A stretch of DNA of 29,004 nucleotides. Origin: Nitrospinota bacterium (GTDB lineage Bacteria > Nitrospinota > Nitrospinia > JACRGO01). The notes under the pieces were generated by a model that had not been told where the DNA came from, did not search any database, and saw nothing but the letters and a program-made list of their open reading frames with translations. The stretch is taken from assembly GCA_016212295.1 (NCBI GenBank), contig JACRGO010000166.1:1-29004 (forward strand), read 5' to 3'. The position numbers and the translations under genes are program-made. Below are positions 1-26,312 of the stretch, one piece after another (positions within the stretch are counted from its first letter, which is position 1; each line of letters opens with the position of its first letter).

Positions 1-754
1 AGCCGGAAGAGATGCTCATCCAGTCTCCTCCGCTGCTGACAGCGGCCCTCCATGCCAAGGTCCCTCCGCCGGTATTGGACACGCTGAAACTGGTGGACGT
101 GGCCCCATACCCGACAGTCCTTGACTTGGGGGTGACGGATAGAGCGGGCGATCCGGAACCGCCGCCCGTGCCGCCGCTTGTGGAACCGCCGGTCGATCCG
201 CCTGAACTTCCCCCGGAGGAGCCGCCGCTCGTTCCTCCAGTCGATCCGCCTGCACCCTCTGACTGTTCAAGAACAAAATCCTTGATAAGCTCAACGCCCT
301 TGTATTTTATCGAGTCTCTTTTGGTTTTATAACCTGTTTTACTTACATTCGCCACGTAGGTGGTCTTTTTTAAGGCATTGCCATCAAAACAATAGTACCC
401 GTCGCTATCCGTCCGGGCGGCAAGATTTTTGGACCCTGCCTTCAATTTTACCGTGGCCTTATTAACAGCATCATCGTTTTGATCCGTTACGCTCCCTGAA
501 ATCCCGCACGTGTCCTCCGCAAGAAAGGCGGAAATAGAAGCGGTTGACGGTTCCCGGTTTTCAATTGTCAATTGTCGATTGTCAATTGCCGGTTGGAGAC
601 CGGTTGCCAGGGAAGTATGGGACTTGGCCCTATGGCGGAGTCCTTTCCCGCCCGCCGCTTCCGACGCGCCAAGAAAACAGGAGACGGCAAGATACACCGC
701 GCATATACCGCAAATGAAAACAAACAATTTTGGAAAAAAATTTTGCCTGGACAT
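1..754 (-). CDS. Secreted carboxypeptidase-regulatory-like / BACON domain protein, 3' end beyond window
   Basis: An uninterrupted frame of 251 codons runs off the left edge. The start is the ATG at 754-752, preceded by GGAGG 7 nt upstream. Residues 1-33 are a hydrophobic export signal ending near ASEA; a weak lipobox-like AVSC lies at 23-26. Residues 83-163 contain CGISGSVTDQ and TDSDGYYCF, typical of the carboxypeptidase regulatory-like beta-sandwich. Residues 165-202 are a Gly/Ser/Thr-rich linker. Residues 204-251 (LSVTPKSRTV, FSVSNTGGGTL, WMSIS) match the start of a BACON domain, a fold often seen in carbohydrate-binding or adhesive surface proteins. The role is probably cell-surface attachment or glycan binding, inferred from domains only. 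Residues 49-72 are encoded by a 7-bp-period repeat and look like inserted linker. A dedicated promoter lies at 1013-1040. Confidence 0.85.
   Translation of the reverse strand, partial: MSRQNFFPKLFVFICGICAVYLAVSCFLGASEAAGGKGLRHRAKSHTSLATGLQPAIDNRQLTIENREPSTASISAFLAEDTCGISGSVTDQNDDAVNKATVKLKAGSKNLAARTDSDGYYCFDGNALKKTTYVANVSKTGYKTKRDSIKYKGVELIKDFVLEQSEGAGGSTGGTSGGSSGGSSGGSTGGSTSGGTGGGSGSPALSVTPKSRTVGYGATSTSFSVSNTGGGTLAWRAAVSSGGDWMSISSG
540..609. repeat. Degenerate 7-bp tandem array inside the BACON gene
   Basis: Read on + the units stay in 7-bp phase from 540 to about 609. The cleanest block is 561-588, four copies of TCAATTG (one TCGATTG), flanked by units of the CCGGTTG type. In the gene it encodes residues 49-72, between the signal peptide and the first domain. 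Because 7 is not a multiple of 3, the repeat is read in all three frames and gives a non-repeating peptide. Confidence 0.8.
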
Positions 755-763
755 GGTGGAACC

Positions 764-798
764 TCCGGGTTAGGGGTTACGAGTTGCGGGTTCAGGGT
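764..798. repeat. Degenerate 7-bp tandem array in the leader of the BACON gene
   Basis: Five consecutive heptamers of general form TNNGGGT (+ strand, e.g. TCCGGGT, TAGGGGT, TCAGGGT). The last unit on the minus strand contributes the GGAGG ribosome binding site (766-762) of the gene starting at 754. Confidence 0.75.
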
Positions 799-829
799 TT
801 AAAATTCGCGTTCTTCGCGGCTGAAAGAC

Positions 830-2898: not shown

Positions 2899-2910
2899 GT
2901 GGGCCGGTTT

Positions 2911-3063
2911 ATATTATTACGTTCAAAATTTTGCGTTTTCCGCGCAAGTTTTTCAACCGCTTCTTGGGGCGCGCATGTCCGCAACCAAAATAAATTTCTC
3001 TTGAAGTATTCAACGTTAATTTTGTTTCAAGCGGAAAACGTAAATTTCTGAACGTAATAATAT
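2911..3063. repeat. Large imperfect inverted repeat, MITE-like
   Basis: The arms at 2911-2943 and 3031-3063 are 33 bp each and match as reverse complements at about 29 positions (both begin ATATTATTACGTTCA at the outer ends). The spacer is 87 bp. CCGG lies just outside both ends. No coding sequence is inside. The left arm reaches to 13 bp before the glycosyltransferase start codon. The structure could be a non-autonomous mobile element or a long hairpin in the transcript leader. Confidence 0.7.
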
Positions 3064-3130
3064 CGCCGGACGTTTGAATGCATCCAAATTTATCTTGGTC
3101 GCGGCCATGCCGCGCTACTATGGAAAATGA

Positions 3131-5181: not shown

Positions 5182-5251
5182 TAGTAACAAGTGACGAGTT
5201 ACAAGTGACAAGTAAAACTCGTCACTCTTTTTACTAGTCACTCGTCACTAT
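5182..5251. repeat. Heptamer array with inverted halves between kinase and CheD-REC genes
   Basis: Ten consecutive 7-bp units in phase. The left half (+ strand) uses AAGTGAC/GAGTTAC-type units. The right half uses their complements (ACTCGTC, TCACTCG, TCACTAT), so the array can fold into a hairpin. It fills the gap between the kinase stop (5250-5248) and the CheD-REC start (5166) and includes the kinase stop codon. Confidence 0.8.
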
Positions 5252-6174
5252 CTTTCAAGCTTTGGAATCCTCAACATTATGGCCGTGCCATTGCCTGGCG
5301 AGGAGTCGATCCACATCCTGCCGCCGAATTTCCGGACTACGTAATACGCCTTGGTCAAACCGAACCCGCCGCCTTTTGTTTCCCTGTCCTCCACGTTGGA
5401 GGCCCGGTATCCGAAACGCACCGATTTGGCTATCTCGCCTTCTGGAATGCCAAGACCGTTGTCCGAGACCTCCAGGACGACTTCATTTTCATTGCATTCC
5501 AGCAGGGCCTTGATCCTGCCGCCCACAGTGGTGTATTTGCGGGCGTTTGCCACAAGGTCGCGCAGCGTGTCCTGAAGCACGATAGGAATGAACATGGACC
5601 CGTCCTCTTTCACCCCGCTCAAGCTCAATTGGACCAGGTAGCCGGAATCCGTTTTGTCCCCTTCCTCATACACTATGCCGAAGCGTCCTCGCGAATTGGC
5701 GGCCACGGCCTCCAGGAAGAGCCGGAGATTGCTCTTGATGTCCTCCGCCTGTATGGAGATCCATTCGCCAGGGGCCTCTCTCAAAAGAAACAACTCCCTC
5801 ACGCGGGTATGCAGCACGTCCATGACGCCTTCGATGTTCTTCGCAAGTTTATCCATTTCCTCGCAACGGGCCGGAATAAAGGAGGAATCCTCCAGCGCCT
5901 TCAGCAAAATATGGTCCACCTCCTCGCGGAAGACGGCCTCGAGGCTTTCAATATGGTCGATGGATTCCCTGGTCTTTTCACGGCTGTGGAAAGATGAGAT
6001 CAGGTCCCGGCAGATTTCAAGGCTTTTGGAAAGACCGCCGGGGCGTCCGGCGGCATTTTCCAGAAGCAGGAACCTAGAGGCCAGCACGTTGACGGCATTG
6101 AAGAGGGAGTGGGCCGCCACGAGGGCGGTTTCTTCCTCTGAAAGCTCAATCGGCTCCGTTATTTCAAGCTTCAT
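5248..6174 (-). CDS. Soluble histidine kinase without sensor domain
   Basis: 308 residues from the ATG at 6174, which overlaps the stop of the upstream gene as ATGA. An upstream TTG would lengthen it into that gene and is less likely. It has no signal peptide or membrane segment. AAHSLFNAVNVLASRF (20-35) resembles a DHp H-box with His22 as candidate phosphorylation site. A long helical region follows (35-150). The HATPase domain shows an N box (LRDLVANARKYT, near 204-215), G1 (SDNGLGIP, near 239) and G2 (GGGFGL, near 271), then GGRMWIDSSPGNGTAIMLRIP. It probably phosphorylates the receivers of the genes on either side. The input signal is not encoded in the protein; a partner must supply it. 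Confidence 0.88.
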   Translation of the reverse strand: MKLEITEPIELSEEETALVAAHSLFNAVNVLASRFLLLENAAGRPGGLSKSLEICRDLISSFHSREKTRESIDHIESLEAVFREEVDHILLKALEDSSFIPARCEEMDKLAKNIEGVMDVLHTRVRELFLLREAPGEWISIQAEDIKSNLRLFLEAVAANSRGRFGIVYEEGDKTDSGYLVQLSLSGVKEDGSMFIPIVLQDTLRDLVANARKYTTVGGRIKALLECNENEVVLEVSDNGLGIPEGEIAKSVRFGYRASNVEDRETKGGGFGLTKAYYVVRKFGGRMWIDSSPGNGTAIMLRIPKLER

Positions 6175-7190
6175 TTTATCTTCATATCCCGAAGAAATTT
6201 TGCCACGCCGGAAATGGAAAGGGAAATATCGTGGCAGCACACTCTATAATCGTGCATGGATTTTCTCTTTCCCACCGGATCGACGATATCCAGGCGCTTG
6301 TTACCGTCCAGTTTGAATTCGCTTAACATGAAAGCCTTTTCCCTGGTGAACGGGTATAATTCCGCCAGGGAATTCAAATGATTTTTCTCCATCACAAGAA
6401 TCAGGTCCGCCTCCCGCGCGAGGTCTTTCGTTATGGACTTGGACCGGTGATTGGCAAGGTTTATGTTCATTTTGGAAAGGACATGAAGGATGCCGTCAGG
6501 AAGCGTGGAACCGGGGCTGGCCTGAAGTCCGGCGGATTGAGCGCGGATGGCGCTGTCCCCCATTCTTTTCAACTGGCGATTGAAAAGGAACTCCGCGATG
6601 GGGCTTCTGAAAATATTGGCCTTGCACAAGAATAAAACTTCTTTTATTCCTCTTTGGGCAATCTTCCTCAGCTCCATAGGCCATTCAACCGCTTTTTCGA
6701 TTTTTTCTTTTTTCATGGCCGCGCCAATTTCCTTGGACCGGGAAGAGGCCAATATCTCCCTTGGAGGGCCGGCGATACGGTCTTTCAGGGATTCGTTTTC
6801 CCGGAGCAATTGGTCGATCATGACCTTGGTCCTGAGTTGCGCCCGTACCCTTGCGAGCAGGATTTTCAAATCGCAGGGTTTGGTGACGTAGTCATCCGCC
6901 CCCTTGTCCAGCCCTTCCACGATATCCTCTATATTTGAACAGGAGGTCAGCATGATCACCCTTATATAAGAGGTGGAATACTGGGACTTGAGTTTCTCCA
7001 ACAACTCGATGCCGCCCATTTCCGCCATCATTTTGTCCAGGATCAAGAGGTCCGGCTGGGATTCCAATTCCTTTTCAATTGCCTCTCTGCCGTTATTGGC
7101 CACCATGACGAAATATCCGGCCTTACTCAGGCAGTGGACTATAAGCTTTTGTAACGACAGATCGTCTTCCACCACAAGGATATTGCTCAT
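6171..7190 (-). CDS. Response regulator: receiver fused to low-molecular-weight protein tyrosine phosphatase
   Basis: 339 residues from the ATG at 7190. AGGAG is 5 nt upstream; a GTG two codons earlier would sit on the ribosome binding site. Residues 1-120 are a receiver: Glu8/Asp9/Asp10, phosphoacceptor Asp52 (LLILDKMM), Thr82 and Lys104 (VTKP). Residues 120-180 are a helical linker. Residues 183-339 are a LMW-PTP/ArsC-fold phosphatase with P-loop LCKANIFRSP, keeping Cys189 and Arg195-Ser196. The usual Gly and second Cys of the loop are Ala and Phe. The general-acid Asp304 is in DIVDPVG, with Tyr315 following. LMW-PTPs such as Wzb dephosphorylate bacterial tyrosine kinases that control exopolysaccharide export. 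Catalytic residues are intact, so activity gated by Asp52 phosphorylation is likely (inference). It is first in the operon. Confidence 0.9.
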   Translation of the reverse strand: MSNILVVEDDLSLQKLIVHCLSKAGYFVMVANNGREAIEKELESQPDLLILDKMMAEMGGIELLEKLKSQYSTSYIRVIMLTSCSNIEDIVEGLDKGADDYVTKPCDLKILLARVRAQLRTKVMIDQLLRENESLKDRIAGPPREILASSRSKEIGAAMKKEKIEKAVEWPMELRKIAQRGIKEVLFLCKANIFRSPIAEFLFNRQLKRMGDSAIRAQSAGLQASPGSTLPDGILHVLSKMNINLANHRSKSITKDLAREADLILVMEKNHLNSLAELYPFTREKAFMLSEFKLDGNKRLDIVDPVGKRKSMHDYRVCCHDISLSISGVAKFLRDMKIK

Positions 7191-7300: not shown

Positions 7301-7370
7301 TCAGGTTTCAGGTTTCAGGTTTCAGGTTTCAGGTTTCAGGTTTCAAGCGTCAGGCGTCATAATTCATAAG
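7301..7370. repeat. Heptamer array, TCAGGTT units
   Basis: Ten 7-bp units in phase: six perfect TCAGGTT copies (7301-7342), then TCAAGCG, TCAGGCG, TCATAAT and TCATAAG. It lies between the divergent starts at 7190 (-) and 7569 (+). Together with 7495-7557 it forms an inverted pair. Confidence 0.95.
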
Positions 7371-7494
7371 ACAGAAGACTCTGCTGCCTCCACAGTGGCG
7401 AAGCCCTGTGGAGCCACAATGCCGGAAACTAAACTCAGTATGGCTCCATAGCCCTGGCAGGACTATTGAGCCGGCAAGGAAGTTACTGGTTTTC
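7371..7494. repeat. Palindromic spacer between two inverted heptamer arrays
   Basis: Contains nested small inverted repeats: CCACAG/CTGTGG (7390-7395 with 7406-7411) and TGGAGCCA/TGGCTCCA (7409-7416 with 7441-7448). No convincing gene is present in 7197-7568. A weak minus-strand promoter for the REC-PTP operon may lie near 7225-7260 (TACAAT with a poor -35). Confidence 0.55.
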
Positions 7495-7557
<63 letters not shown>

Positions 7558-7568
7558 CTAGTCCCCAA

Positions 7569-9044: not shown

Positions 9045-9062
9045 CGGAATTCAGGGGGTAGT

Positions 9063-9139
9063 TGTCAGGGAAGGGCGAAGGGCTGAAGACAGTGGACGGA
9101 GGCGCATGACTCATGGCACATTACTCATGGCGCCTTGAT
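9063..9139. repeat. Degenerate heptamer array after the transporter gene
   Basis: Eleven 7-bp blocks keep phase from 9063 to 9139: two GAAGGGC copies, then more diverged units, then a run of CATGACT, CATGGCA, CATTACT and CATGGCG type. The right end supplies the first codons of the truncated BrnT frame. Confidence 0.6.
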
Positions 9140-9292
9140 GCGGATACAATTGGAATTGACAGGAATGGCATTTTGTTGGTTGTAATACATACTTTCCAGC
9201 AGTTGGATGCCGACTGTTGCAGAATTAGAATTATTTCTGCCCGCAAGACAACCAGAAAAGAATCAAAACAGTATCAGGAGGAAAATAAATGA
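9113..9292 (+). pseudogene. Truncated BrnT-type ribonuclease toxin (C-terminal half only)
   Basis: A 59-codon frame from an ATG at 9113 to the TGA at 9290-9292. From about residue 13 it reads as the C-terminal half of BrnT: IGIDRNGILLVVIHT, then RIRIISARKTTRKESKQY, the family's C-terminal signature. The N-terminal half, with the start of the RNase fold, is missing. The first ten or so codons come from the heptamer array and an 18-bp direct repeat (9123-9140). It ends in an ATGA overlap with the next gene, the normal toxin-antitoxin arrangement. The protein is probably inactive. It could instead be a short expressed remnant. Confidence 0.75.
9123..9140. repeat. 18-bp direct repeat, left copy
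   Basis: ACTCATGGCGCCTTGATG, identical to 9728-9745. The two copies bracket the truncated toxin and antitoxin-like gene. BrnT homology begins directly after this copy. Confidence 0.9.
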
Positions 9293-9492
9293 AAAAAGAA
9301 TATGATTTTTCAAAAGGTGAGAGAGGTAAGTTTTATCGTCCAGATGCGGAATTGTATCTACCTATTTACATTGAGCCTGACATGATGGAGGTTCTAAGAA
9401 AATTCTCGAAGCAAAAAGGCGTCGATGTTGCGACAATAGTAAATGAATGGATAAAAAAAGACATATCCATAGTAGAAACAATAACAAAATAA
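9289..9492 (+). CDS. Small antitoxin-like protein paired with BrnT remnant
   Basis: 67 residues. AGGAGG lies 7 nt before the ATG at 9289. The protein starts EYDFSKGERGKFYRPDAE, the N-terminal style of BrnA-type antitoxins. It continues with LYLPIYIEPDMMEVLRKFS and VDVATIVNEWIKKDI, a beta strand followed by two helices as in ribbon-helix-helix DNA-binding proteins. It overlaps the toxin remnant by 4 bp. It probably once neutralised BrnT and repressed the operon. With the toxin truncated it is an orphan and could still act as a DNA-binding repressor. The family call rests on this N terminus and the position after BrnT. 9493-9708 downstream holds nothing I can recognise. Confidence 0.7.
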   Translation: MKKEYDFSKGERGKFYRPDAELYLPIYIEPDMMEVLRKFSKQKGVDVATIVNEWIKKDISIVETITK

Positions 9493-9708
9493 CAATGCCT
9501 GGGGCAGCGTCTGAACAGTGAATAACGGACTAAAGAGATTGCAGGTTTAAATCCAAATAAAACAGAAAATACAAATAAAAACCCACTGGGAACAGAAGCC
9601 TCGAAGGGCACTGAGAAAAAATGACGAATTTTCTATAAACTTGGCGGCTAATTTACTTTTTGGTTTTCCATTTGTAATGTTCACTATAGGCAAAAAGAAC
9701 GCTTCAAC

Positions 9709-9743
9709 ACATGACCCAAGACGCATGACTCATGGCGCCTTGA
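9709..9743. repeat. Heptamer array overlapping the 3' end of a glycosyltransferase gene
   Basis: Five 7-bp blocks of ACATGAC / GCATGAC / TCATGGC type. It contains the right copy of the 18-bp repeat and the stop codon (9732-9730) of the minus-strand gene. Confidence 0.6.
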
Positions 9744-9745
9744 TG
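9728..9745. repeat. 18-bp direct repeat, right copy
   Basis: Identical to 9123-9140. Read on the minus strand it encodes the last residues (IKAP) and the stop codon of the glycosyltransferase ending at 9730. Confidence 0.9.
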
Positions 9746-12087: not shown

Positions 12088-12110
12088 GTTTTTATAAAAT
12101 GTTTACAGCG

Positions 12111-17174: not shown

Positions 17175-17462
17175 ATGAGAATTTCACAGGAACAAATAGA
17201 TTGCTTGAAAAATAAAATCAAGGCTGTTTTGCCGGATGCGGTGGTTTATCTTTTCGGTTCACGGACGGACGACAATAAGAAGGGTGGAGACATAGATATC
17301 ATGGTTCTGTCTGAAAAAAAAATACGGTGGAAGGAAAAAGCCATGATACGATGGCATTATTTTGAAAAATTCGGCGAGCAGAAACTGGATATAATATCAT
17401 CTACCTTTAAAGACGAGGACGCTTTTAAACAGATGGTGTTAAGAGAAGGGATAAGGCTATGA
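17175..17462 (+). CDS. mntA: MntA-type minimal nucleotidyltransferase antitoxin
   Basis: 95 residues. The polymerase-beta-like nucleotidyltransferase signature is present as YLFGSRTDDNKKGGDIDIMV (29-48), with Gly-Ser and the Asp-x-Asp metal site. A third carboxylate lies in LDIIS. In characterised pairs MntA transfers AMP groups from ATP to a tyrosine of HepT and so inactivates it. GAGGGG lies 7 nt before the ATG, inside the end of the helicase gene. It overlaps hepT by 4 bp (ATGA, 17459-17462). The block is AT-richer than the helicase gene before it. Confidence 0.9.
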   Translation: MRISQEQIDCLKNKIKAVLPDAVVYLFGSRTDDNKKGGDIDIMVLSEKKIRWKEKAMIRWHYFEKFGEQKLDIISSTFKDEDAFKQMVLREGIRL

Positions 17463-17911
17463 CATCTGAAGCCTTAATGATAAAAGAACTGAAAGAAGAT
17501 TTTAACAGATTGGACCGCGCTGTCAGGGTTTTAAAATATTCATTGCAGCAATGCCTGAAAATAGGGATAAAGATAGATTACTCATTAGAAGAACTGGACA
17601 GATTTGAAAGCCTTACTTCCAGGTTTGCCAGGACAAGCGATATTTATACACAGAAAATAATGAAAGGGATAATACTGATATTAAGGGAAGATTCCAACAC
17701 TTTCATAGATAGAGCTAATTTGTTTGAAAAGCTGGAGATATGCGGCGCGGAAGATTTAAAATTGATAAGGGACTTAAGAAATGAAATATCCCATGAATAT
17801 AAAATAGACGATATCACTGAAATATTTGAATCCGTGATTGAATATACCCATAAGCTTATGGAAATCATCGAAAGGACAGAGGTGTTTGCTAAAAATAAAT
17901 GCTTGATATAG
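17459..17911 (+). CDS. hepT: HepT-type HEPN ribonuclease toxin
   Basis: 150 residues, all helical. The HEPN active site RNEISHEY near residues 110-117 fits RX4HXY exactly: Arg and His form the RNase site and the Tyr is the residue MntA adenylylates in characterised pairs. Length and position after MntA are typical. Both genes appear intact, so this is the only complete toxin-antitoxin module in the window. It could serve plasmid-like maintenance of the adjacent segment or anti-phage abortive infection; the sequence does not decide. Confidence 0.88.
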   Translation: MTSEALMIKELKEDFNRLDRAVRVLKYSLQQCLKIGIKIDYSLEELDRFESLTSRFARTSDIYTQKIMKGIILILREDSNTFIDRANLFEKLEICGAEDLKLIRDLRNEISHEYKIDDITEIFESVIEYTHKLMEIIERTEVFAKNKCLI

Positions 17912-17957: not shown

Positions 17958-18101
17958 ATGTTAAAGTTGAATATCCATGAGGATAAAACCCATCTATACA
18001 AGTATGTAAACCGCCTTGCCGAAAACGATTTCATGGGCTCAAAATAGCTTTTTGGTCCTCTCCCAAGGGACATCGAACTCTCTTTTTATGGAAAATCATG
18101 A
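17958..18101 (+). pseudogene. Phd/YefM-type antitoxin relic, internally deleted with in-frame stop
   Basis: ATG at 17958. Residues 2-20 (LKLNIHEDKTHLYKYVNRL) match the N terminus of Phd/YefM antitoxins (usual form NIHEAKTHLS). After 29 codons there is a TAG (18045-18047). The same frame continues with FGPLPRDIELSFYGKS and a TGA at 18099-18101, the usual C-terminal tail of Phd proteins paired with PIN toxins. The middle 30 or so residues are missing. The TGA overlaps the toxin ATG as ATGA, so the operon layout survives. Confidence 0.8.
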
Positions 18102-18295
18102 AGCTTATTTTGGATACCTGCGCCTTTCTTTGGGTTTTAAGCGACCCTCTTAAACTTTTCGAAAAAGCCAGGAATTTTTTTTCAGACCCAGCAAACACCC
18201 CCATCGAACAAAGGAAAATAGAGCGCGGCCTGAAGGAGGCCGGGATCCGTTTGAAGGGGGCGTATGTGGAAGATATGGGTGTCGGATCAAAGTAA
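18098..18295 (+). pseudogene. Chimeric PIN toxin remnant fused to copied cytochrome-like C terminus
   Basis: A 65-residue frame. Residues 1-32 (LILDTCAFLWVLSDP, then LFEKARNFFSDPAN) are the N terminus of a VapC/PIN ribonuclease toxin with its first catalytic Asp. From residue 33 the sequence switches to TPIEQRKIERGLKEAGIRLK and on, nearly identical to the C terminus of the protein encoded at 14151-14693. The rest of the PIN domain, with its other catalytic acids, is missing, so no RNase activity is expected. The junction lies at about 18195, the start of the 83-bp repeat. It is in frame, so a chimeric protein could be made. Confidence 0.85.
18195..18277 (+). repeat. 83-bp direct repeat, copy 2 (inside the PIN remnant)
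   Basis: 77 of 83 positions match 14602-14684. The six differences are scattered, so the duplication is not recent, or one copy has drifted without selection. Confidence 0.95.
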
Positions 18296-18377
18296 ATACA
18301 AAATTGGCGTGTTTTATGGATAGTGGTTTCCTTGGCTGCAGGAGGGAAATCTGATAAAACAATAGAAAGGTATTTTC

Positions 18378-19778
18378 TTGAATAATAGATTTATCTCGTA
18401 TCGGGACTTTAAAATATTTTCACTGGCCAATATTTATTTTTTTTTGTTTCTTATTTTTGGGTTTGTTTTATATGGTTGCTCAGAGACCGTTGCTCCAAAT
18501 GTTATTTTAATTACAGTTGATACTTTGAGACCGGATCATTTGAGTTGCTATGGATATCCTCGCCGTACAAGTCCTAATATTGATAAAATCGCATCCCAAG
18601 GCATTCTCTTTGAAAATGTAGTAGCCCAATCTAGTTGGACCCTGCCATCCGTTGCCTCCATTCTTACATCAAGGTTTCCTGGAGAGCTGAGAATGGTAAA
18701 TTCCTTCTCAAAATTTAGAGATGAATCATTAAGGATAGCCACAATTTTGCAAGAAAGAGAATTTTATACAGCGGCATTTATTTCCGGTGGCTTAATCTCT
18801 GCTTCAAGAGGATTTGACAAAGGATTTAACACATTTACGGACATAGTAGGCAGGGCAGAGGTTATTAATTCACACGTTTTTAAGTGGTTGAATCAAAAAA
18901 GGGATAAACCGTTTTTTTTGTGGGTTCATTATTTTGACGTTCACTCTGATTACGATGCCCCTCCACCATTTGACAAACGATTCGATGAAACCTTTTCTGA
19001 TCTAAAAATTGGCAGGACTGATTATTTGCTAAATGTTATAAAAAATGGATTGAAATTGCCTCCAGCAGAAATTTCAAAAATAAAATTACTTTATGACAGG
19101 GAAATCCTCTATACTGACCATCATATTGGAAAATTATTAGAAAGACTTAGAAAAAAACAAGTATTGGATAATTCTATTTTAATAATAGGCGCTGACCATG
19201 GCGAAGAGTTTATGGAGCATAGCAAGATGGGCCATTCTTTTACCCTATATGACGAAGTGGTAAAAGTGCCTCTAATAATAAGATATCCAGCTAAGCTTTC
19301 TAAAAGCAAAAAAATTTCGCAACAAGTCCAAAATTTAGATATACTGCCTACTATTTTAGATCTAATATCAGTTGACTTCATAGATTTCCAATTCAGGGGA
19401 AGAAGTCTTTTGCCATTGATTGAAGGAAAACTGGAAATGGATCAGTTCGCATTTTCTGAAACTCAGCCATTAGGGGAGTGGCTTAAAGATAGAGAAGAAT
19501 GGCCAAATAATATATTTAAGTCATTATATATGATTAGAACAAACAAAAATAAGTTGATTTTTGATGAGAAAAACAAATCTTGGGAATTTTTCGATTTAGC
19601 GGCGGACTCTGGAGAAAAATTTAACAAGTATTCTGAAAGTATTACCCAGGATAATGATTTCAAAAAAGCATTATTGGCTTGGAAAAAATCCTTGCAAGTG
19701 AAATTTTTAGTAAATGAAGAAATTGAAAAAAAGCAGAGTGAAATTGAAAAATTAAGGTCTTTGGGATACATAAACTAA
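18378..19778 (+). CDS. Sulfatase-fold (alkaline phosphatase superfamily) lipoprotein
   Basis: 466 residues. The TTG start at 18378 has AAAGG 8 nt upstream and there is no ATG near. A hydrophobic segment (20-33) ends in LYGC (Cys34), probably a lipoprotein. NVILITVDTLRPDHLSCYGY (41-60) gives the metal Asp. SSWTLPSVAS (85-94) is the active-site stretch, with Thr88 where true sulfatases have the Cys/Ser converted to formylglycine. GADHGEEF and MGHSFTLYDEVVKVPLI are the remaining metal-site motifs. The C terminus IEKLRSLGYI is typical of this lipoprotein group. With Thr as nucleophile it is more like a phosphotransferase or phosphodiesterase than an arylsulfatase. It is first in the glycan cluster, so it may modify the finished glycan. 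Confidence 0.85.
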   Translation: MNNRFISYRDFKIFSLANIYFFLFLIFGFVLYGCSETVAPNVILITVDTLRPDHLSCYGYPRRTSPNIDKIASQGILFENVVAQSSWTLPSVASILTSRFPGELRMVNSFSKFRDESLRIATILQEREFYTAAFISGGLISASRGFDKGFNTFTDIVGRAEVINSHVFKWLNQKRDKPFFLWVHYFDVHSDYDAPPPFDKRFDETFSDLKIGRTDYLLNVIKNGLKLPPAEISKIKLLYDREILYTDHHIGKLLERLRKKQVLDNSILIIGADHGEEFMEHSKMGHSFTLYDEVVKVPLIIRYPAKLSKSKKISQQVQNLDILPTILDLISVDFIDFQFRGRSLLPLIEGKLEMDQFAFSETQPLGEWLKDREEWPNNIFKSLYMIRTNKNKLIFDEKNKSWEFFDLAADSGEKFNKYSESITQDNDFKKALLAWKKSLQVKFLVNEEIEKKQSEIEKLRSLGYIN

Positions 19779-19816
19779 ATATATGCGAGAATCAACCACA
19801 TTAATTTTTTGGCAGC

Positions 19817-20566
19817 GTGAAAAACATGTTTGACCAGCGGTTATTATCGACTTTAAAAAAAATAATCCCACAATTTATTCAAAAAAGGATAGATCCTTTT
19901 GAAGCATTAGGAAATTCATTTTTAAAAAAGGCAAACGAAGAAACTTCTCCTGATGCTTTGGTACTAGACGCTGGAGCCGGAGAATGCGAGCATAAAGCCT
20001 TTTTCAACGGCAAAAAGTATATCTCAATAGACTTTGCCGAGGGCGACGCCTCTTATAATTACAGAAATCTGAGCATAATAGGGGATTTGCATAAATTGCC
20101 CTTTAAAGACAATATTTTTGAAATTGCCATAAATATTGTTGTCCTGGAGCATTTGAGGGAACCGAAAGATGCCTTAAAGGAACTGTACAGAGTTATAAAA
20201 CCAGGGGGACTGCTTTATATAAAAGTGCCTTTTTGTTGGGAAGAACATCAATATCCTTATGATTTTTTCAGGTTCACATCCTTTGGCCTTCGCTACCTTT
20301 TAGAGGCATCCAAATTTGAAGTTATTTCCTTGGAGCCAATTGGAGGATTTTTTTGGCTCCTTGGTAGAAGGCTGATGGGTGTTTTGCAATTTTTTCAGGA
20401 AGGATGGAAATATATATTTTTTTTACTTTTAGCGCCAATTTTTGGACTATTTCTTCCTATCGCATGTTATTACCTTGACCATTTTGATAAAGAACGCAAT
20501 TACACCATGGGATATCTTTGTATAGCGCAGAGACCGGAAAAATATGGGGAGTTGAGCAAGGAATGA
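19817..20566 (+). CDS. Class I SAM-dependent methyltransferase with C-terminal membrane segment
   Basis: 249 residues from GTG at 19817; an ATG three codons later is equally possible and neither has a strong ribosome binding site. LVLDAGAGECEHKAFF (about 49-64) is motif I of the Rossmann SAM site. LHKLPFKDNIFEIAINIVVLEHL and ELYRVIKPGGLLYIKVP are motifs II-III of the UbiE/Methyltransf_11 type. Residues 190-225 contain hydrophobic stretches (YIFFLLLAPIFGLFLPIACY), so it may sit at the membrane. The stop overlaps the next gene as ATGA. The substrate is probably a glycan or its lipid carrier, inferred from neighbours. Confidence 0.85.
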   Translation: MKNMFDQRLLSTLKKIIPQFIQKRIDPFEALGNSFLKKANEETSPDALVLDAGAGECEHKAFFNGKKYISIDFAEGDASYNYRNLSIIGDLHKLPFKDNIFEIAINIVVLEHLREPKDALKELYRVIKPGGLLYIKVPFCWEEHQYPYDFFRFTSFGLRYLLEASKFEVISLEPIGGFFWLLGRRLMGVLQFFQEGWKYIFFLLLAPIFGLFLPIACYYLDHFDKERNYTMGYLCIAQRPEKYGELSKE

Positions 20567-21993
20567 AAAAAATATTATTTATGAGACCCCAGGCACCAGG
20601 ACCACGCTTTACGCCGTTTGGGATTTTGTACCTAACCGCATATATCAAAAAAAATGAATATCCCGCTGAAATCAATCTTCTTGATCTTAGAGGCCGATCA
20701 TTAACGCGGCAGCAAATTTCCTGCGAAGTTGAAAACTTCAAACCTGACTTAATCGGAATTTCTTCACTGAGCACGGAATCTTTACCCACCCATGAACTGG
20801 TTGGGATTTGCAAGCAGGTTTTGCCAAATACCCCAGTTGTAATAGGGGGACCTTATGCCTCGGCCGAATGGCAATATGTGCTCGAAGATACCCAAGTGGA
20901 TTACTCTATAGTGGGGGAAGGAGAAAAAAACTTCTTGGAATTCCTGAAATACATGGGAGACGGGCGTAATCCTGAAGGCCTGGATGGGGTGGCATCGCGG
21001 GATGACTCCGGCAAGGCCATGTTAAGCGCTTCACGCACCTTCATTACCAACTTGGATGAAATTCCTTTTCCTGCATATGAATTGATAAACATTGAAGAAT
21101 ATTCTTGCAAGGCTAATTCCCATCTTCCTGCTTTCGATGTTAATAAACGTTTTACCCAAATGTTTACCTCGCGTGGATGCCCTTATCTTTGCAGCTTTTG
21201 CCATAACATTTTTGGCAAAAAAATTCGATATCGTAGTATAAGCAACGTCATGCAGGAAATGGACTGGTTGGTTAATAAATACGGAATTGAAGAAATACAC
21301 TTTGAGGATGATTCATTCAATATGGATTTGGAGCACGCAAAAAATATTTGCAGTGAAATTATCAAAAAAAATTATAAATTAAGATTTGCGTTCCCTAATG
21401 GAATCAGGGCTGATCATGTTGATGAGGAACTGGTTGATCTGTTTTGCCGGATGGGTGTGTATAGCGTGGGGTATGGAATAGAGTCCGCGAGTAAGGCAAT
21501 TAGAAAAAGAATCAAGAAGGCGCTAAACTTAGATAAACTGAACAAGGCCATTAGCCTTACAGCAAGGCGAGGCATTGTTGTTTCAGGATTTCTCATGGTC
21601 GGATTTCCGAATGAAACGGAGAAAGAGATAGAGGAAACCATACTTTTTGCCTGCAAATCCAAGCTTCATATAGCCATCTTTAGTCGCGTTATACCTTTTC
21701 CCGGCACGGAACTTTACAATGAGGTACTCCGGCTTGGCTTTCATTACAACAGGGAATTATTCAATAAAATAATGTTTGAAAAGGCGGCAATCAATTTTTC
21801 AGAACTCTCGAATGAGCAGTTGGAAGCGAAAATTCGATCCGCCATGCGTAGATTCTATTTAAACCCATTTAGATTGCTTAGAATTTTTCTTGTTTATCCT
21901 GGAAAGATAGGGCTTTTTTCTGAAGGACTAAGGGTAATTAAAGAAAAATTGCTTGGTTTGCACTCAAGCACAAATAATCATGGCTGTAAATAA
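20563..21993 (+). CDS. B12-binding-domain radical SAM enzyme
   Basis: 476 residues from the ATG at 20563. An earlier start lies inside the upstream gene. Residues 1-135 have the cobalamin-binding Rossmann pattern (PDLIGISSLS, VVIGGPYAS, VGEGEKNF) but no DxHxxG, as in many of this class. GCPYLCSFC (205-213) supplies the CxxxCxxC for the 4Fe-4S cluster (Cys206, 210, 213). FEDDSFNMD and YGIESASK are the usual barrel strands. Such enzymes often methylate unreactive carbons or rearrange lipid or antibiotic precursors. Placed between two methyltransferases and glycosyltransferases, this one may make a C-methylated or otherwise unusual sugar or lipid (inference). Confidence 0.9.
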   Translation: MKKILFMRPQAPGPRFTPFGILYLTAYIKKNEYPAEINLLDLRGRSLTRQQISCEVENFKPDLIGISSLSTESLPTHELVGICKQVLPNTPVVIGGPYASAEWQYVLEDTQVDYSIVGEGEKNFLEFLKYMGDGRNPEGLDGVASRDDSGKAMLSASRTFITNLDEIPFPAYELINIEEYSCKANSHLPAFDVNKRFTQMFTSRGCPYLCSFCHNIFGKKIRYRSISNVMQEMDWLVNKYGIEEIHFEDDSFNMDLEHAKNICSEIIKKNYKLRFAFPNGIRADHVDEELVDLFCRMGVYSVGYGIESASKAIRKRIKKALNLDKLNKAISLTARRGIVVSGFLMVGFPNETEKEIEETILFACKSKLHIAIFSRVIPFPGTELYNEVLRLGFHYNRELFNKIMFEKAAINFSELSNEQLEAKIRSAMRRFYLNPFRLLRIFLVYPGKIGLFSEGLRVIKEKLLGLHSSTNNHGCK

Positions 21994-22023
21994 ACAAAAA
22001 GATAGTTTCAAAGGACACATCAT

Positions 22024-22881
22024 TTGGGACAGTATAATATTGTTAAGGGGCAAGATTTTGAACTATGGCAGAAAGATATGGCCTTTTGCGCTCCAGGAGG
22101 GAAAACCCCTGTAATAGGTTGGGATTATCCTGAATACTATTTGGCTCAAGTAACCTTTAAGGCGGAAGAAGTGGAAAGAAATCCCAAAGCTCCACGATGG
22201 GAAAAGGCACAAAAGGCTGAAATCAATTTTTGGAGGAAATGGAGAAAAAATATTCTTTATAAAAATATAACCCCAGATACCGATTGGGCTGAGGTTTTGA
22301 AAAGGACCGGTGGGCCCCTACCCGCTGGCAAAGTACTGGATATTGGTTGCGGCCCTATATCGGTTTTAAATTTCTTTCGAGGAGATGGCATGCGACCCAT
22401 CGGCATAGATCCTCTGGCGGAATTATATGCTCGTGAACAAATAGTGGAATGGAAAAAAGGGTGGGAACCAATAACCATGGTTAGTCTCTCCGCGGAAAAG
22501 CTCCCTTTTGCCAACGAATATATGGACCACTTGATTTGTTTTAACGTATTGGACCATGTTGCGGATGCGGTTGCTATGCTGAAGGAAATGTTACGAGTAT
22601 TAAGGCCTGGTGGAACAATAAGAATTTACATTCATACCTTTTCACGTTGGCTTAAAAAACTCCTTTTTTTTGATTCTCCACATCTTTCCCATTGGGAGCA
22701 TATAGAATTTTCAAAACTTTTAGAGTCTTCAGGTTTAGAAATTATACAGGAAAATATAGAGTCGGCATTATTTTTTGAATTGCCTTCAGGCTTTTATGCT
22801 ACCTTAAGATATTTCTCATACTGGATAGCTTCTAAGGCAGTTAAAACTAGTTATTTTCTTTTGAAGAAACCCAATGGGTAA
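22024..22881 (+). CDS. Class I SAM-dependent methyltransferase
   Basis: 285 residues. The TTG at 22024 is the only usable start after an in-frame stop at 22003, and AAAGGA lies 8 nt upstream. An N-terminal region of 100 residues, rich in Trp and charged residues, precedes the SAM domain: VLDIGCGPISVLNFF (motif I, about 104-118), IGIDPLAE, LSAEKLPFANEYMDHLICFN and EMLRVLRPGGTIRIYIH. It is a Methyltransf_11-type enzyme with unknown acceptor. It overlaps the next gene by 8 bp, so the two are probably co-translated. Confidence 0.88.
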   Translation: MGQYNIVKGQDFELWQKDMAFCAPGGKTPVIGWDYPEYYLAQVTFKAEEVERNPKAPRWEKAQKAEINFWRKWRKNILYKNITPDTDWAEVLKRTGGPLPAGKVLDIGCGPISVLNFFRGDGMRPIGIDPLAELYAREQIVEWKKGWEPITMVSLSAEKLPFANEYMDHLICFNVLDHVADAVAMLKEMLRVLRPGGTIRIYIHTFSRWLKKLLFFDSPHLSHWEHIEFSKLLESSGLEIIQENIESALFFELPSGFYATLRYFSYWIASKAVKTSYFLLKKPNG

Positions 22882-24544
22882 AAAATATACTGATATGAAT
22901 CAAAAAGTAAAAAAAGATTTTTTTTTCTTATTGCTGGTAATATTATTTACCACATTGCCATTTTTAAACAAGCCATTTAATATTGATGATGCCCAATATT
23001 TTGAAATTGCCAGTTGGATTGATATAAACCCTTTCAATGTTGCAAAACATGATTTTGGTTGGCTGGGGCAGCAAATTAAAGGCGGGCTTATTTATGAAAC
23101 TAGCCATCCTATTTTATTCTTTTATTTTTTGAACGTTATTTCCAAAATTGGGCATGCCAATAGCGAGGCGATATACCATCTTATCTATATTTTTTTCCCC
23201 ATTTTAATAGCAGTATCATTTTATTTTATTGCAGCTAAATTTATTGAAAAACCTCTATATGCGGTTTTGCTACTTCTCGCAATGCCAGGGTATTTGGCAT
23301 GTTCTCACACTATAATGGCTGATTCCCCCACGTTATCTTTTTGGCTATCAGCTGTTTGCTTATATATTTATGGATTAGATGGCCGGAAAAAATGCTTATA
23401 CTTGACAATGGTCCCAGTTTTTTTTGCTTTGGGCTTTTCATATCAATCCCTTAGTTTAATCCCGCTATTATTGTTTTGGGCGTTGATCAAGCGCCAAATC
23501 TCGTGGAAAACTTTGTTGCCTGTCATAATTCCTGCCGGGATTTTTTTTGGGTACTTGGCCATTATTTATAAGATGCACGGGGTTTTCCCTTTTTTCGCCA
23601 ACATACGCGATTACAATATTAAAAATCTGATCTTGTCTCCCAATTATAGCCAGACACTCGGCCTTAAGACCATTTATATTTTTAGTTCCGTTGGGTCAAT
23701 GCTTTTAATTCCTTCCATTTTGTTTCTTTCCATGGAGTTAAAAGCTTCAAAAGGCAAGCTGATTATTTTGGGGGGAGTTATTTTTTGTTTTTTAATTTCC
23801 TTGGAATTTATAAGTGATTATTCCTTTTTTTACAAATTCCTTTTTTCCATTTATTTTATCTCAGGATTTTTTATTATTGTTAAGTCTTTTTCGGGGCTTA
23901 AAAAAAATTTAAAAATTTATGGCAAAAATATGGATGCAATGGCCCCTTTTTTTTCAGTATGGTGTTTGGGGATAATTTTTTACAATATTTTTATAATGCC
24001 AATGGGCGCGATTCGTTTCTTGCTCCCACTCTTTCCTCCTTTGATTTTGTTGTTTTTAAAAAAATTTGAAATAGATACAAAATGGAGGCACCAAAAAAAA
24101 ATTTTGGTCGTCTTTTTTGCCCAAATGGCATTTTCCCTATCGGTTGCCAGAGCCGATTACGAGTTTGCCTCCATATACAAAGACTTTAGCAAAACCATAC
24201 CGACATTGGTATCCGAAAAAGACCACGATATTTATTTTTCCGGAGAATGGGGATTTCGCTATTACATGAAAAAGGAGGGCTATATTTATTTTTTAAACGA
24301 ACATCATTCCCCAAAGACGGGTGATTTTATTATTCAACCTACTCTGGCGTATTTTGAACAAAGGCCAGAGAGTGTGGCTTCAAGGTTGAAACTTATAAAA
24401 ACCAAGGATTATAAAGGAGATATCCCATTACGCTTGTTTAATTTTGAGGCCAAAGGAGGATTTTGGTCGCATGACCATGGTTTGCTGCCTATTTCCATTG
24501 GAAATAATATAATTGAGTCGTTTAAAATATACCAAGTATCGTAG
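22874..24544 (+). CDS. Polytopic GT-C glycosyltransferase (ArnT/PMT-like)
   Basis: 556 residues with about eleven hydrophobic helices between residues 15 and 420, then a soluble periplasmic-type tail. NIDDAQYFEIA (37-47), just after the first helix, carries the Asp-Asp expected in the first extracytoplasmic loop of GT39/GT83 enzymes, which use polyprenyl-phosphate sugars to glycosylate lipid or protein on the outer face of the inner membrane. ETSHPILFFYFLNV and MADSPTLSFWLS follow the same family pattern. The lipid-linked sugar donor could be made by the DPM-like genes in this window. It is very AT-rich. The acceptor is unknown. Confidence 0.85.
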   Translation: MGKKYTDMNQKVKKDFFFLLLVILFTTLPFLNKPFNIDDAQYFEIASWIDINPFNVAKHDFGWLGQQIKGGLIYETSHPILFFYFLNVISKIGHANSEAIYHLIYIFFPILIAVSFYFIAAKFIEKPLYAVLLLLAMPGYLACSHTIMADSPTLSFWLSAVCLYIYGLDGRKKCLYLTMVPVFFALGFSYQSLSLIPLLLFWALIKRQISWKTLLPVIIPAGIFFGYLAIIYKMHGVFPFFANIRDYNIKNLILSPNYSQTLGLKTIYIFSSVGSMLLIPSILFLSMELKASKGKLIILGGVIFCFLISLEFISDYSFFYKFLFSIYFISGFFIIVKSFSGLKKNLKIYGKNMDAMAPFFSVWCLGIIFYNIFIMPMGAIRFLLPLFPPLILLFLKKFEIDTKWRHQKKILVVFFAQMAFSLSVARADYEFASIYKDFSKTIPTLVSEKDHDIYFSGEWGFRYYMKKEGYIYFLNEHHSPKTGDFIIQPTLAYFEQRPESVASRLKLIKTKDYKGDIPLRLFNFEAKGGFWSHDHGLLPISIGNNIIESFKIYQVS

Positions 24545-24558
24545 CCATATTTAAAAAA

Positions 24559-25272
24559 ATGGGCGATTTAACATTTTGCCCCTTAGTGAGTGAAAAAATG
24601 TATAGAGATAACCGGATTACCGTAATTGTTCCATGCCTGAACGAAGAAGATGCCATTGGCAAAGTAATAGAGAGCATTCCAAAGCTTGTGGACGAAATCA
24701 TTATTGTTGATAATGGCTCGGAAGACAGGACAGCAAAAATTGCCGAAGAATTGGGCGCCAAGGTCATCCATGAGCCAAACAGGGGATATGGAAGGGCTTA
24801 TAAGGCAGGATTCAAGAACGCGGTTGGAGACATTATAATTACCCTTGATGGCGACCATTCCTACCCCGCGCAGGATATTCATCTTTTGATTGACTTTTTA
24901 TTGAAAAAAAACGCTGATTTTCTTTCCGCCTCGCGCTTCCCATTAAAAAACAAAGAAAGCATGTCTTTTAAACATTATGTTGGAAATAAGATGCTTTCTT
25001 TTACCATGTGTCTATTGTTTCATGTTTGGATAGAGGATTCGCAGAGCGGTATGTGGGTTTTCAAGAAAAATATTCTGGATAAAATGAAACTGAGAAGCAA
25101 TGGCATGGCCTTTTCCGAGGAAATCAAGATTGAGGCCCTGATTAGAAAGGACGTAAAATTCATCGAAAAACACATCTCCTACTCCAACCGGGTCGGAGAA
25201 AAAAAATTGCAGCCCTACAGGGATGGCATGAAGAATATCCTGTTCCTGTTTAAAAAGAGATTCTTCGGATGA
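24559..25272 (+). CDS. GT2 glycosyltransferase, DPM1/DPG-synthase type
   Basis: 237 residues from the ATG at 24559; the ATG at 24598 (13 residues later, right before the conserved ITVIVPCLNEEDAIG) may be the real start. VDNGSEDRTAKIAEELGA, EPNRGYGRAYKAGF, TLDGDHSYPAQDI and DSQSGMWVF are motifs of the polyprenyl-phosphate glycosyltransferase group. There are no long transmembrane helices. It probably makes the lipid-linked sugar used by the GT-C gene before it. It ends in an ATGA overlap (25269-25272) with the next glycosyltransferase. The AT-rich stretch ends here. Confidence 0.9.
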   Translation: MGDLTFCPLVSEKMYRDNRITVIVPCLNEEDAIGKVIESIPKLVDEIIIVDNGSEDRTAKIAEELGAKVIHEPNRGYGRAYKAGFKNAVGDIIITLDGDHSYPAQDIHLLIDFLLKKNADFLSASRFPLKNKESMSFKHYVGNKMLSFTMCLLFHVWIEDSQSGMWVFKKNILDKMKLRSNGMAFSEEIKIEALIRKDVKFIEKHISYSNRVGEKKLQPYRDGMKNILFLFKKRFFG

Positions 25273-26312
25273 CCCCTGGCGCCAGGAACAACAACCCGTT
25301 GATTTCCGTTGTCATTCCCAATTGGAATGGAAAGAAATTCCTCCCAGCCTGCCTGGACTCCCTTAAACGCCAGTCCTACCCGAACCTTGATGTCATAGTG
25401 GTAGACAACGGGTCCACCGACGGTTCTGTTCAGTATTTAAAGGAAAACTATCCCGGTTTTGTTAAGATAGTCGAGCTTCAGGAAAACCATGGGTTCGACA
25501 GGGCTGTCAACGAGGGGATCAAGGTTTCCAAAGGCGCTTATATCGCCACTTTGAACAACGATACCGAGACCCATGAGGATTGGATAAGGGAACTGGCCAA
25601 GGGTTTCGATCATGGCGACAGGGTGGGAATGTGCGCGTCCAAGATTTTGTTTTACTTTAACAGGGACATCATCGATAAGACAGGCCACGTCATGTACCTA
25701 GACGGGCTCAACAAGGGAAGAGGGGCCATGCAAAAAGACAACGGTAAGTTCGAGGTTTGCGAGGAGGTTTTTTTCCCTGACGGATGCGCGGCTTTGTATA
25801 AGCGGGAATTATTCGACGAGGTGGGGCTTTTTGATGAGCGTTTTTTCGCGTATGGAGACGATGCGGAATTGGGATTCCGGGCAAGACTTTTCGGCTGGAA
25901 GTGTGTTTATATGCCGTCCGCCGTTGTGTACCATATCCACTCGGGAACGACAAGCCCCTATTCCAAATTGAAGGTTTTTCTGGTGGAAAGGAATAGGTTT
26001 TGGCTGGCCCTGAAGTTGTTTCCCTTGCCTTTCCTTTTGGCCACGCCGTTTTACACTGCCCTTCGATTTTACTGGCATTCCTACAGCGCCTTTTTCCAAA
26101 AGGGCTCCGCTGGACGCTTCAGAAAGGAATTTTCATCAGTGGAATTGGTCCTGGTCCTCATGAAGTCCTATCTGTCGGGCCTGAAAGGGCTGCCTTATAT
26201 CCTGGGGAAGAGAAGGGAAATCCTAAGGAAAAAAGCCGTGAACAACCGGCAAATAAAGGAATGGTTTTCCAGATTCGGCATCAGCGCGAAAGACATAGCC
26301 TTAATCGATTAA
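25269..26312 (+). CDS. GT2 glycosyltransferase, rhamnosyltransferase-like
   Basis: 347 residues. ISVVIPNWNGKKFL (13-26), VVDNGSTDGS, ENHGFDRAVNEGI, TLNNDTETHEDWI, FFPDGCAALYKRELFDEVG and YGDDAELGFRARLFGW are the motifs of WbbL-like rhamnosyl- or hexosyltransferases that extend O-antigen or capsule chains. A hydrophobic stretch (about 240-262) may associate it with the membrane. The first residues (TPGARNNN) are encoded by a heptamer-type stretch also present at 10482-10502, so the very N terminus is probably not conserved. It is coupled to the upstream gene by a 4-bp overlap. Composition is GC-richer than the genes before it. Confidence 0.9.
   Translation: MTPGARNNNPLISVVIPNWNGKKFLPACLDSLKRQSYPNLDVIVVDNGSTDGSVQYLKENYPGFVKIVELQENHGFDRAVNEGIKVSKGAYIATLNNDTETHEDWIRELAKGFDHGDRVGMCASKILFYFNRDIIDKTGHVMYLDGLNKGRGAMQKDNGKFEVCEEVFFPDGCAALYKRELFDEVGLFDERFFAYGDDAELGFRARLFGWKCVYMPSAVVYHIHSGTTSPYSKLKVFLVERNRFWLALKLFPLPFLLATPFYTALRFYWHSYSAFFQKGSAGRFRKEFSSVELVLVLMKSYLSGLKGLPYILGKRREILRKKAVNNRQIKEWFSRFGISAKDIALID
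25272..25285. repeat. Two heptamer units at a glycosyltransferase 5' end
   Basis: ACCCCTG then GCGCCAG, the same units as at 10482-10502 with one unit missing. It includes the palindrome CCTGGCGCCAGG. It is too short to be a tandem array on its own and is recorded because of the match. Confidence 0.4.

Follow-up and report, generated by a model that had tools for sequence, protein, structure and literature searches.

Heptanucleotides are the commonest long simple-repeat unit in many bacterial genomes, according to an earlier survey as relayed in passages of two later papers (Mrazek 2007, via PMC4692102 and PMC4679880). In Xanthomonas and Nostoc, the heptameric repeats GGGAATC and GGGGA(C/T)T form one G-rich unit family per genome and are discussed as G-quadruplexes, with 70 and 75 closely spaced inverted pairs described for the Xanthomonas heptamers (Rehm 2015, PMC4692102). 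In marine Beggiatoaceae, direct repeats of the single unit TAACTGA lie mostly in forward orientation immediately upstream of start codons, and related heptamers are rare (MacGregor 2015, PMC4679880). The STRR of heterocystous cyanobacteria are likewise short tandem heptanucleotides, judging by the remarks on cyanobacteria in PMC4692102 and PMC4679880.

The arrays investigated here, in the window (the whole 29,004-nucleotide stretch of Nitrospinota DNA analysed) and elsewhere in the same genome, share with the Xanthomonas and Nostoc repeats the 7-bp period, a dispersed intergenic location near gene ends, avoidance of divergent regions and variable copy number (PMC4692102), and the frequent convergent inverted pairs of Xanthomonas are also present. 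By contrast, the G-tract unit able to form G-quadruplexes is not found, GGG occurring in few of ~70 mostly non-G-rich units, and two families have common ends and exchangeable arms. The likeness to the Beggiatoaceae TAACTGA repeats lies in intergenic heptamer arrays, an environmental genome and a patchy distribution across phyla (PMC4679880), whereas many units, inverted pairs and the lack of an orientation preference set the present arrays apart. With the repeats of Mrazek 2007 they share the 7-nt excess and polymerase slippage as an explanation (via PMC4692102 and PMC4679880); inverted pairing and a mobile-element context appear in neither of the passages in those two papers. Like REPINs/RAYT (PMC3116915) and bacterial MITEs, they are short, non-coding, intergenic, hairpin-forming and multicopy; unlike both, their arms are tandem 7-bp arrays and their ends lack terminal inverted repeats, and an association with a RAYT or other transposase was not found. 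The published heptamer repeats of Xanthomonas, Nostoc and Beggiatoaceae thus look like the nearest relatives, and the elements here like a variation on a known kind.

Period 7 was the best lag in each of the eight main arrays listed in the first-pass annotation, with lag-7 identities of 0.90 (561-588), 0.71 (764-798), 0.60 (5182-5251), 0.86 (7301-7370), 0.89 (7495-7557), 0.51 (9063-9139), 0.64 (9709-9743), and 1.0 (11481-11515). These values were equalled by at most 1.4% of length-matched random windows, and by none for the arrays at 7301, 7495, and 11481; TRF on the window was concordant with the lag-7 test. The periodicity reported at first is therefore confirmed, and is stronger than first stated. 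Three weaker arrays fared less well. The sequence at 12067-12092 (lag-7 identity 0.07) is a half-arm of a period-8 family with the unit ACAGAGGCGCAGAGG. The weak ACCCCTG/GTCCCTG pair at 10482-10505, with the palindromic CCCTGGCGCCAGGG, is marginal (0.47) and dominated by a CCTGGCGCCAGG-type palindrome, as is the array at 25272, where an identity of 0.41 was matched by 11% of random windows and is not significant. TRF also detected a period-4 (TGAT)12 array at 924-970.

Genome-wide scans covered 856 kb of the 3.74-Mb metagenome-assembled genome, in stretches not picked for arrays. Among 329 tandem arrays, 58 had period 7, 61 period 14, 35 period 21, and none period 5 or 6; a Markov-3 shuffle contained no period-7 arrays. 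Periods other than 7 and its multiples were not equally common, so this refuting outcome named in the first-pass annotation did not occur. An even-handed lag scan of the same 856 kb gave 52 strict intergenic arrays of period 7 and none of periods 5, 6, or 8; the coding sequence (687 kb) contained 11 arrays of period 7, an intergenic-to-coding rate ratio of 19. Arms of period 6, 8, and 9 are nevertheless present in this and related genomes, those of period 8-9 being frequent in the sister genome G001, so the period described as strict is strongly dominant but not rigidly fixed at 7 bp. Across 77 genomes of the phylum, the TCAGG core was found at period 7 in six and at period 8 in none.

The first-pass description of the arrays overlooked inverted pairing and sharp-ended dispersed elements. 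Of 144 arrays, 63 (~44%) had a strong partner in inverted orientation no more than 200 bp away, against 9 of 144 in direct orientation (Fisher p ~5e-14) and 3 of 144 in the control (p ~4e-19). The paired arrays are the arms of hairpins. At 5182-5251, arms of AAGTGAC/GAGTTAC and inverted GTCACTCGTCACT form a hairpin that starts at the stop codon of a HATPase gene (5248-6240, minus strand), lies upstream of a CheD/response-regulator gene and has an RNA fold of -41 kcal/mol (z=-8.2). At 7301-7559, a plus-strand left arm of (TCAGGTT)6 (7301-7345) is separated by a spacer (7346-7492) from the minus-strand, inverted right arm of (CCTGACT)n (7493-7559), which ends 10 bp short of the start codon of a POT transporter; the full structure folds at -118 kcal/mol (z=-6.8). 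The spacer holds a dispersed repeat that forms hairpins itself; the stretch 7378-7529 recurs in the genome and in G001. Most tested arms fold significantly (z -4 to -9). Folding was not significant for window arrays 9060-9145 and 555-600; in the latter, (TCAATTG)4 at 561-588 has a self-complementary unit (CAATTG), lies within a weak ORF and has a fold z of -1.6. No inverted partner was found for the degenerate TNNGGGT array at 764-798, just upstream of the start of a minus-strand ORF (2-754), and none was recognised for the perfect (GGTGTCA)5.9 array at 11478-11518, at the start codon of a glycosyltransferase gene (10466-11476). A possible common loop motif, GGTGGYAGGTTTTTT, was noticed by eye in several ATTTCAG hairpins with different arms and in two hairpins of G001. 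Mirror copying of arms was rejected, mirror identity (0.79) not exceeding lag-7 identity (0.82) in 21 testable cases.

At least three families are dispersed in the genome. Two of them, with ~35-40 copies each, share the ends GAACTTAWCGCCCTTCGGGCGG... and ...TGGAAATTCCTATACTAT but have unrelated heptad arms (AATGACT and GAACATC), and in the 32 element copies examined the ends were common and the flanks unrelated. The third, F1, occurs at ~40 places, with copies up to 98% identical to the consensus, and composite arrays recur almost intact at unrelated loci. The elements resemble MITEs in being short, non-coding, and present in many dispersed copies with defined ends; their ends GAACTTA... and ...CTATACTAT do not form inverted repeats, the inverted arms being internal. 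No clear target-site duplication was seen by eye in the flanks of sharp ends, and the ORFs beside ten element sites included no transposase. Two Y1 transposase (Y1_Tnp) genes and one reverse transcriptase were found, none tied to heptads. RAYT-driven REPs were rejected for lack of a link: at L242 the Y1_Tnp gene comes with separate palindromes that are not built of heptads (GCGGATTTGCAATCCGC), a heptad hairpin lying 400 bp away, and L241 has no heptads, so neither gene is flanked by the palindromes of the elements as in a REPIN/RAYT system. It is scarcely credible that a transposon making a 7-bp target-site duplication left the arrays as tandem footprints by inserting and excising repeatedly; such a process would count length rather than sequence and is compatible with unit diversity, but the array pairs are inverted, not direct, 7-bp direct duplications were not observed at any element, and the element ends show no clear duplication.

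From the dispersal of at least three families we infer that these are miniature non-autonomous mobile elements. The reading that fits best, and which we consider probable though far from certain, is one of small mobile non-coding hairpin elements with arms kept up by 7-bp slippage. A purely local origin, by in-place slippage with a 7-nt preference and template switching to produce the inverted partners, without a mobile element, is a real but unlikely possibility. It accords with the ~70 different units, with partnerless single arrays such as 11478-11518, and with the proposal that 7 nt corresponds to the stretch of DNA gripped by the polymerase (Mrazek 2007, as relayed in PMC4692102 and PMC4679880). 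In addition, many hairpins have arms common to others, yet BLAST matched their loops and flanks nowhere else, so simple transposition of a whole hairpin is not demonstrated for these. Against a local origin stand the common ends of two families amid unrelated flanks, the near-identity of F1 copies, and the composite arrays almost unaltered at unrelated loci.

Copies in the two families with common ends had arm lengths of 15/22/29, 34/41, 35/42, and 44/51/58, which differ by multiples of 7. Measured copy-to-copy within the genome, arms differed in length by more than 2 bp in 23 cases, and in 13 of these the difference was a multiple of 7 (expected 1/7, p 3e-6), indicating that arms grow and shrink by sevens. 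F1 indels comprised 17 of 7 bp compared with 9 of 6 bp and 4 of 8 bp, a spike that was weaker on confidently aligned core copies (8 compared with 4 and 4). In the window, CATGACT-type heptads in the direct repeat CGCATGACTCATGG..CGCCTTGATG at 9103-9140 include two additional units (CACATTACTCATGG) that are missing from the other copy at 9722-9745, which overlaps the stop codon of a glycosyltransferase gene (9730-10455), and the copies differ by exactly 14 bp. The original suggestion that length is counted rather than sequence agrees with these whole 7-bp steps; ordinary slippage in an existing 7-bp array gives the same outcome, so the steps do not prove a length-measuring machine. Slippage accounts for the unit steps, but not for period 7 across unrelated arrays.

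The unit diversity emphasised at the outset extends to the ~70 units of period 7, the commonest being AAATAAC, AAATCTG, AACATCG, and AATGACC. Unit-to-unit similarity declines steadily from 5.27 of 7 at one unit apart to 3.99 at five, which rejects a higher-order 21-bp repeat; in long arrays the sequence shifts along the array while phase is kept, and adjacent units are most alike. TGA/TCA is enriched in the units (49% compared with 27%). A stop-codon insulator, with a stop in every unit, was rejected, as a stop trinucleotide occurred in 76% of units compared with 71% of shuffled ones. Units frequently combine constant with varying positions (fixed columns 3.57 compared with 2.65 expected), as might be produced by an enzyme writing 7-nt units by templated or length-measured addition, with a core copied and other bases copied poorly. 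The sharp period preference and a geometry that stays constant while the unit sequence swaps within one element frame would also fit such an enzyme. We nevertheless regard it as very improbable, since duplication of mutated units also predicts the fixed-column excess, arms of other periods exist, and the reverse transcriptase and Y1 transposases provide no candidate.

For 40% of arrays a gene end was no more than 15 bp away, compared with 22% for random placement within the same intergenic regions. The enrichment at gene boundaries is thus genuine but modest, and the impression that nearly all arrays touch a gene end arises mostly from short intergenic regions. Divergent intergenic regions contained 7 arrays against 21 expected, and with respect to genes the loop favoured neither strand (12 sense, 20 antisense). 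Intrinsic transcription terminators were rejected on this lack of strand preference and because arms also lie upstream of start codons (7493-7559). The strong folding and intergenic position near gene ends could more generally reflect hairpins that function as RNA or DNA (terminators, stabilisers of mRNA, or arrays bound by protein) and are selected for structure rather than sequence. That is quite improbable: besides the indifference to strand, there were no compensatory changes, and hence no sign of structure-maintaining covariation, among eight copies (a comparison of low power), RNAalifold did not recover the F1 arms, Rfam gave no match for the repeats, and pairing selection would not yield an internal 7-nt period. 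Moreover, the hairpins at L100:7899-7978 and 5182-5251 are absent at the orthologous places in G001, a lineage-specific gain or loss in both cases. Plasmids gave no match for the repeats, and a literature search on the repeat sequences themselves returned nothing relevant.

Under the mobile-hairpin reading, most arrays would be arms, or single arms left over, of small non-coding hairpin elements, each with an arm of ~3-10 7-bp units, a like inverted run and a loop of ~10-170 bp. The gain and loss of whole units between copies most likely occurs by slipped-strand replication assisted by the hairpin. Point mutations accumulate in units between slippage rounds, so that adjacent units are most alike and phase is kept despite sequence change. 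That 7 is no multiple of 3 probably accounts for the avoidance of coding sequence, and divergent regions are presumably spared because promoters lie there, leaving arrays at gene ends. As for the preference for 7, the present data give no explanation, and the default, taken from earlier literature, would be some inherent feature of the replication machinery. A broader proposal, fairly improbable in our estimation, is that a mobile-hairpin superfamily extends across several families of the class, with the end TGGAAATTCCTATACTAT conserved and the hairpin rebuilt from changing 7-nt units; if so, the generating process, polymerase or element-encoded, would specify step length and not sequence.

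Bacterial genomes have more than once been observed to be rich in 7-nt repeats, but no cause has gained acceptance. In this genome, ~70 units of period 7 occur as hairpins, some within dispersed elements that can be counted and aligned. The cause becomes testable, because element copies record 7-bp gains and losses, and because related genomes with 6-, 8-, or 9-nt arms allow step length to be set against the genes for replication and repair. Annotation of such genomes calls for caution, as many 'gene-end repeats' are probably element arms rather than regulatory sites.

The contig (C125) belongs to a draft genome of 3.74 Mb (237 contigs, 90.5% complete), from which stretches totalling ~990 kb were sampled; statistics were taken from 856 kb picked without regard to arrays. 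In these 856 kb, TRF reported 329 arrays, with 58 at period 7, 61 at period 14, 35 at period 21 and none at period 5 or 6, and a Markov-3 control run under TRF yielded no period-7 arrays. A lag scan of the 856 kb, in which all periods were handled equally, gave 52 strict intergenic arrays at period 7 and none at periods 5, 6 or 8; period 7 was also seen in 11 strict coding arrays. The 7-bp period proposed in the first-pass annotation was thus not matched by equally common other periods. Each of the 11 arrays claimed in the window was tested separately by comparing its best lag with random windows, and period 7 held for 8 of them (best lag 7, at or past the random-window edge); among the weaker ones, 10482 was marginal, 25272 was not significant and 12067 proved to be a period-8 sequence. 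The sole long period-4 array noted in the window, a perfect (TGAT)12 at 924–970, is a candidate hypermutable site.

Seven is a strong mode rather than a law, since periods 6, 8 and 9 also occur. Short-loop hairpins with periodic arms in the source genome numbered 59 at period 7, 13 at period 8, 24 at period 9 (seven of these being N runs) and two at period 6. Relatives in family f6 carry many period-7 arms and some of period 6 and 8, and in the sister-species genome, G001, period 8 equals period 7 in frequency. Hairpins there with 8-nt arm units (TGGAGTAA type; stretches L217:5295–5451, L249:757–846 and L259:3254–3345) suggest that species may vary in which unit length they favour. We also searched 77 genomes of the phylum for four copies of the core TCAGG with spacers of 1, 2 or 3 nt, a probe of how widely such arrays are spread rather than a blind one, as TCAGG was picked for forming arrays in the source genome. 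With the 2-nt spacer (period 7), the source genome gave 38 hits, overlapping ones included, and five other genomes, from families f4 and f6, gave 15; the 1-nt spacer gave seven in two f5 genomes, and the 3-nt spacer none among the 77.

The arrays were depleted from coding and from divergent intergenic regions (7 observed in the latter vs 21 expected). Gene-boundary enrichment, also claimed in the first-pass annotation, was borne out, though it is modest: 40% of arrays lay within 15 bp of a boundary, compared with 22% when positions were drawn at random from the same intergenic regions. Many arrays are hairpin arms paired in inverted orientation, 63 of 144 having a strong inverted match within 200 bp, compared with 9/144 for direct matches and 3/144 for a control using other arrays' flanks; among intergenic inverted repeats whose arms reach at least 18 bp, 45 of 178 had period-7 arms. 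The single hairpin at 5182–5251 of the window folds with a z of −8.2, and the arm pair 7301–7345 and 7493–7559, whose spacer is a dispersed repeat, with a z of −6.8; further heptad hairpins range from −4 to −9, and folding was not significant at 9060–9145 and 555–600. A functional RNA role for the hairpins is disfavoured, because their loops showed no strand preference, eight close copies showed no compensatory change (a test of low power), and the arms of the F1 family of dispersed elements were not retrieved as a consensus structure.

Units drift within arrays. Phase 7 is kept over 10–18 units while the sequence may turn over almost wholly, as in L098:2593–2720, where units pass from CCATGCG via CCTCCGT to TGATACC. 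Unit similarity is highest between neighbours and falls over distances of one to five units (5.27, 4.82, 4.52, 4.26 and 3.99 of 7), a decay that fits stepwise single-unit duplication with mutation in between. The 127 arrays comprise ~70 canonical units, with AAATAAC, AAATCTG, AACATCG and AATGACC recurring frequently.

Arrays also gain and lose whole units. The window's direct repeats at 9103–9140 and 9722–9745 are identical save for exactly two extra units. Indels in F1 peaked at 7 bp (17, vs 9 of 6 bp and 4 of 8 bp; in a stricter set 8, vs 4 and 4). For the AATGACT and GAACATC families, the automatic indel count was noisy owing to some misplaced loci and was replaced by arm lengths between fixed anchors. 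Left arms of AATGACT measured 22 bp (n = 12), 15 bp (n = 2) or 29 bp (n = 2) and right arms 41 bp (n = 8), 34 bp (n = 3), 20 bp (n = 1) or 55 bp (n = 1), a few deviating by 1–3 bp or more. Left arms of GAACATC measured 42 bp (n = 10) or 35 bp (n = 1), alongside a 41/48/20 series that is offset by 1 bp, and right arms 58, 51 or 44 bp, with three of 40 bp. Of the arm-length differences exceeding 2 bp, 13 of 23 were multiples of 7. The window's ~600-bp segment at 9103–9745, bounded by heptad-containing 24-bp direct repeats, resembles an insertion or duplication; its 67-codon ORF (9289–9492) had no Pfam match.

When intergenic DNA was compared against the genome sample, several highly repeated families emerged, of which at least three carrying heptad arms are dispersed in the genome. 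F1 (~136 bp, ~40 copies in the sample, 76–98% to consensus) has CAAATNN heptads as both of its arms. Two others share a start, GAACTTAWCGCCCTTCGGGCGGACTTTAAAG, and an end, AAAAAATGGAAATTCCTATACTAT, with unrelated outer flanks, and enclose an AATGACT hairpin in one (~40 copies) and a GAACATC hairpin in the other (~35). A few copies with these ends enclose a different hairpin, or a GAACATC hairpin that itself contains a GTCATGA one; arm sequence has thus been swapped inside one frame. In two GAACATC copies (L308, L315), a 22–25 bp palindrome, AAGGGCACGACGCATCGTGCCC, within a heptad arm is an apparent nested insertion. The right-end motif occurred 81 times in the source genome, 5 times in G001, 3, 8, 1 and 7 times in four f2 and f4 genomes, and once, with three mismatches, in one f7 genome, and was missing from the remainder of the 77. 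It was preceded by GATGTTC arms in G001 and by different heptad hairpins (ACGAGTTGCGAGTTT.../...AACTCGTAAC) in another genome, G009, while several sites in a further one, G004, had no preceding hairpin.

Three orthologous regions of the source genome and G001 differ by entire insertions: the hairpins at L100:7899–7978 and window 5182–5251 and the dispersed repeat at window 2900–3115 are missing from G001, which carries another hairpin at the place of L100:8698–8804. The compared genes share ~72% DNA identity, so these differences are old and a precise footprint is illegible. The repeat at 2900–3115 is one copy of a ~200-bp family (..ATTATTACGTTCAGAAATTT..TTTTGGTTGCGGCCATGCCGC..) with dozens in the sample. 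Another repeat, AATTCCCCTCTTGAGAGGGGTGGCCGAAGGCCGGGGTGTGTCAG (~50 matches in the sample), lies at many contig ends (e.g., L022:1–99, L058:12–143, L097:15–147) and probably breaks the assembly. At L242:1100–2300 (contig C211), a Y1 transposase gene flanked by clusters of other palindromes (GCGGATTTGCAATCCGC, CGTTACAGGTTACAAACCTGTAACG) is likely a separate REP/RAYT system. Elsewhere in the window, a GC drop from ~51% to 36–43% over 18000–26000, with sulfatase, radical SAM/B12 and PMT_2 (mannosyltransferase-like) genes, suggests acquired DNA; ahead of it, at 17175–17911, a nucleotidyltransferase gene lies with a partner that matched no Pfam family, possibly as an MNT/HEPN-type pair.

For Xanthomonas, published work already describes an excess of heptamers that lie between genes, avoid divergent regions and even form inverted pairs (PMC4692102), and heptamer arrays at start codons have been published for Beggiatoaceae (PMC4679880). 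For many unit families within one genome, heptad arms in dispersed elements with conserved ends, and the swap of arms inside one frame, a search of open-licence papers turned up no description. The elements behave like miniature mobile elements, but their ends are not terminal inverted repeats, and they are therefore classed neither as MITEs nor as REPINs. Slippage on hairpin-forming DNA most likely produces the unit steps, and these alone; the 7 nt common to unrelated arms lies outside that explanation, and earlier work, as cited in PMC4692102 and PMC4679880, proposed for it the stretch of DNA that the polymerase holds. The elements themselves are probably moved by an enzyme.
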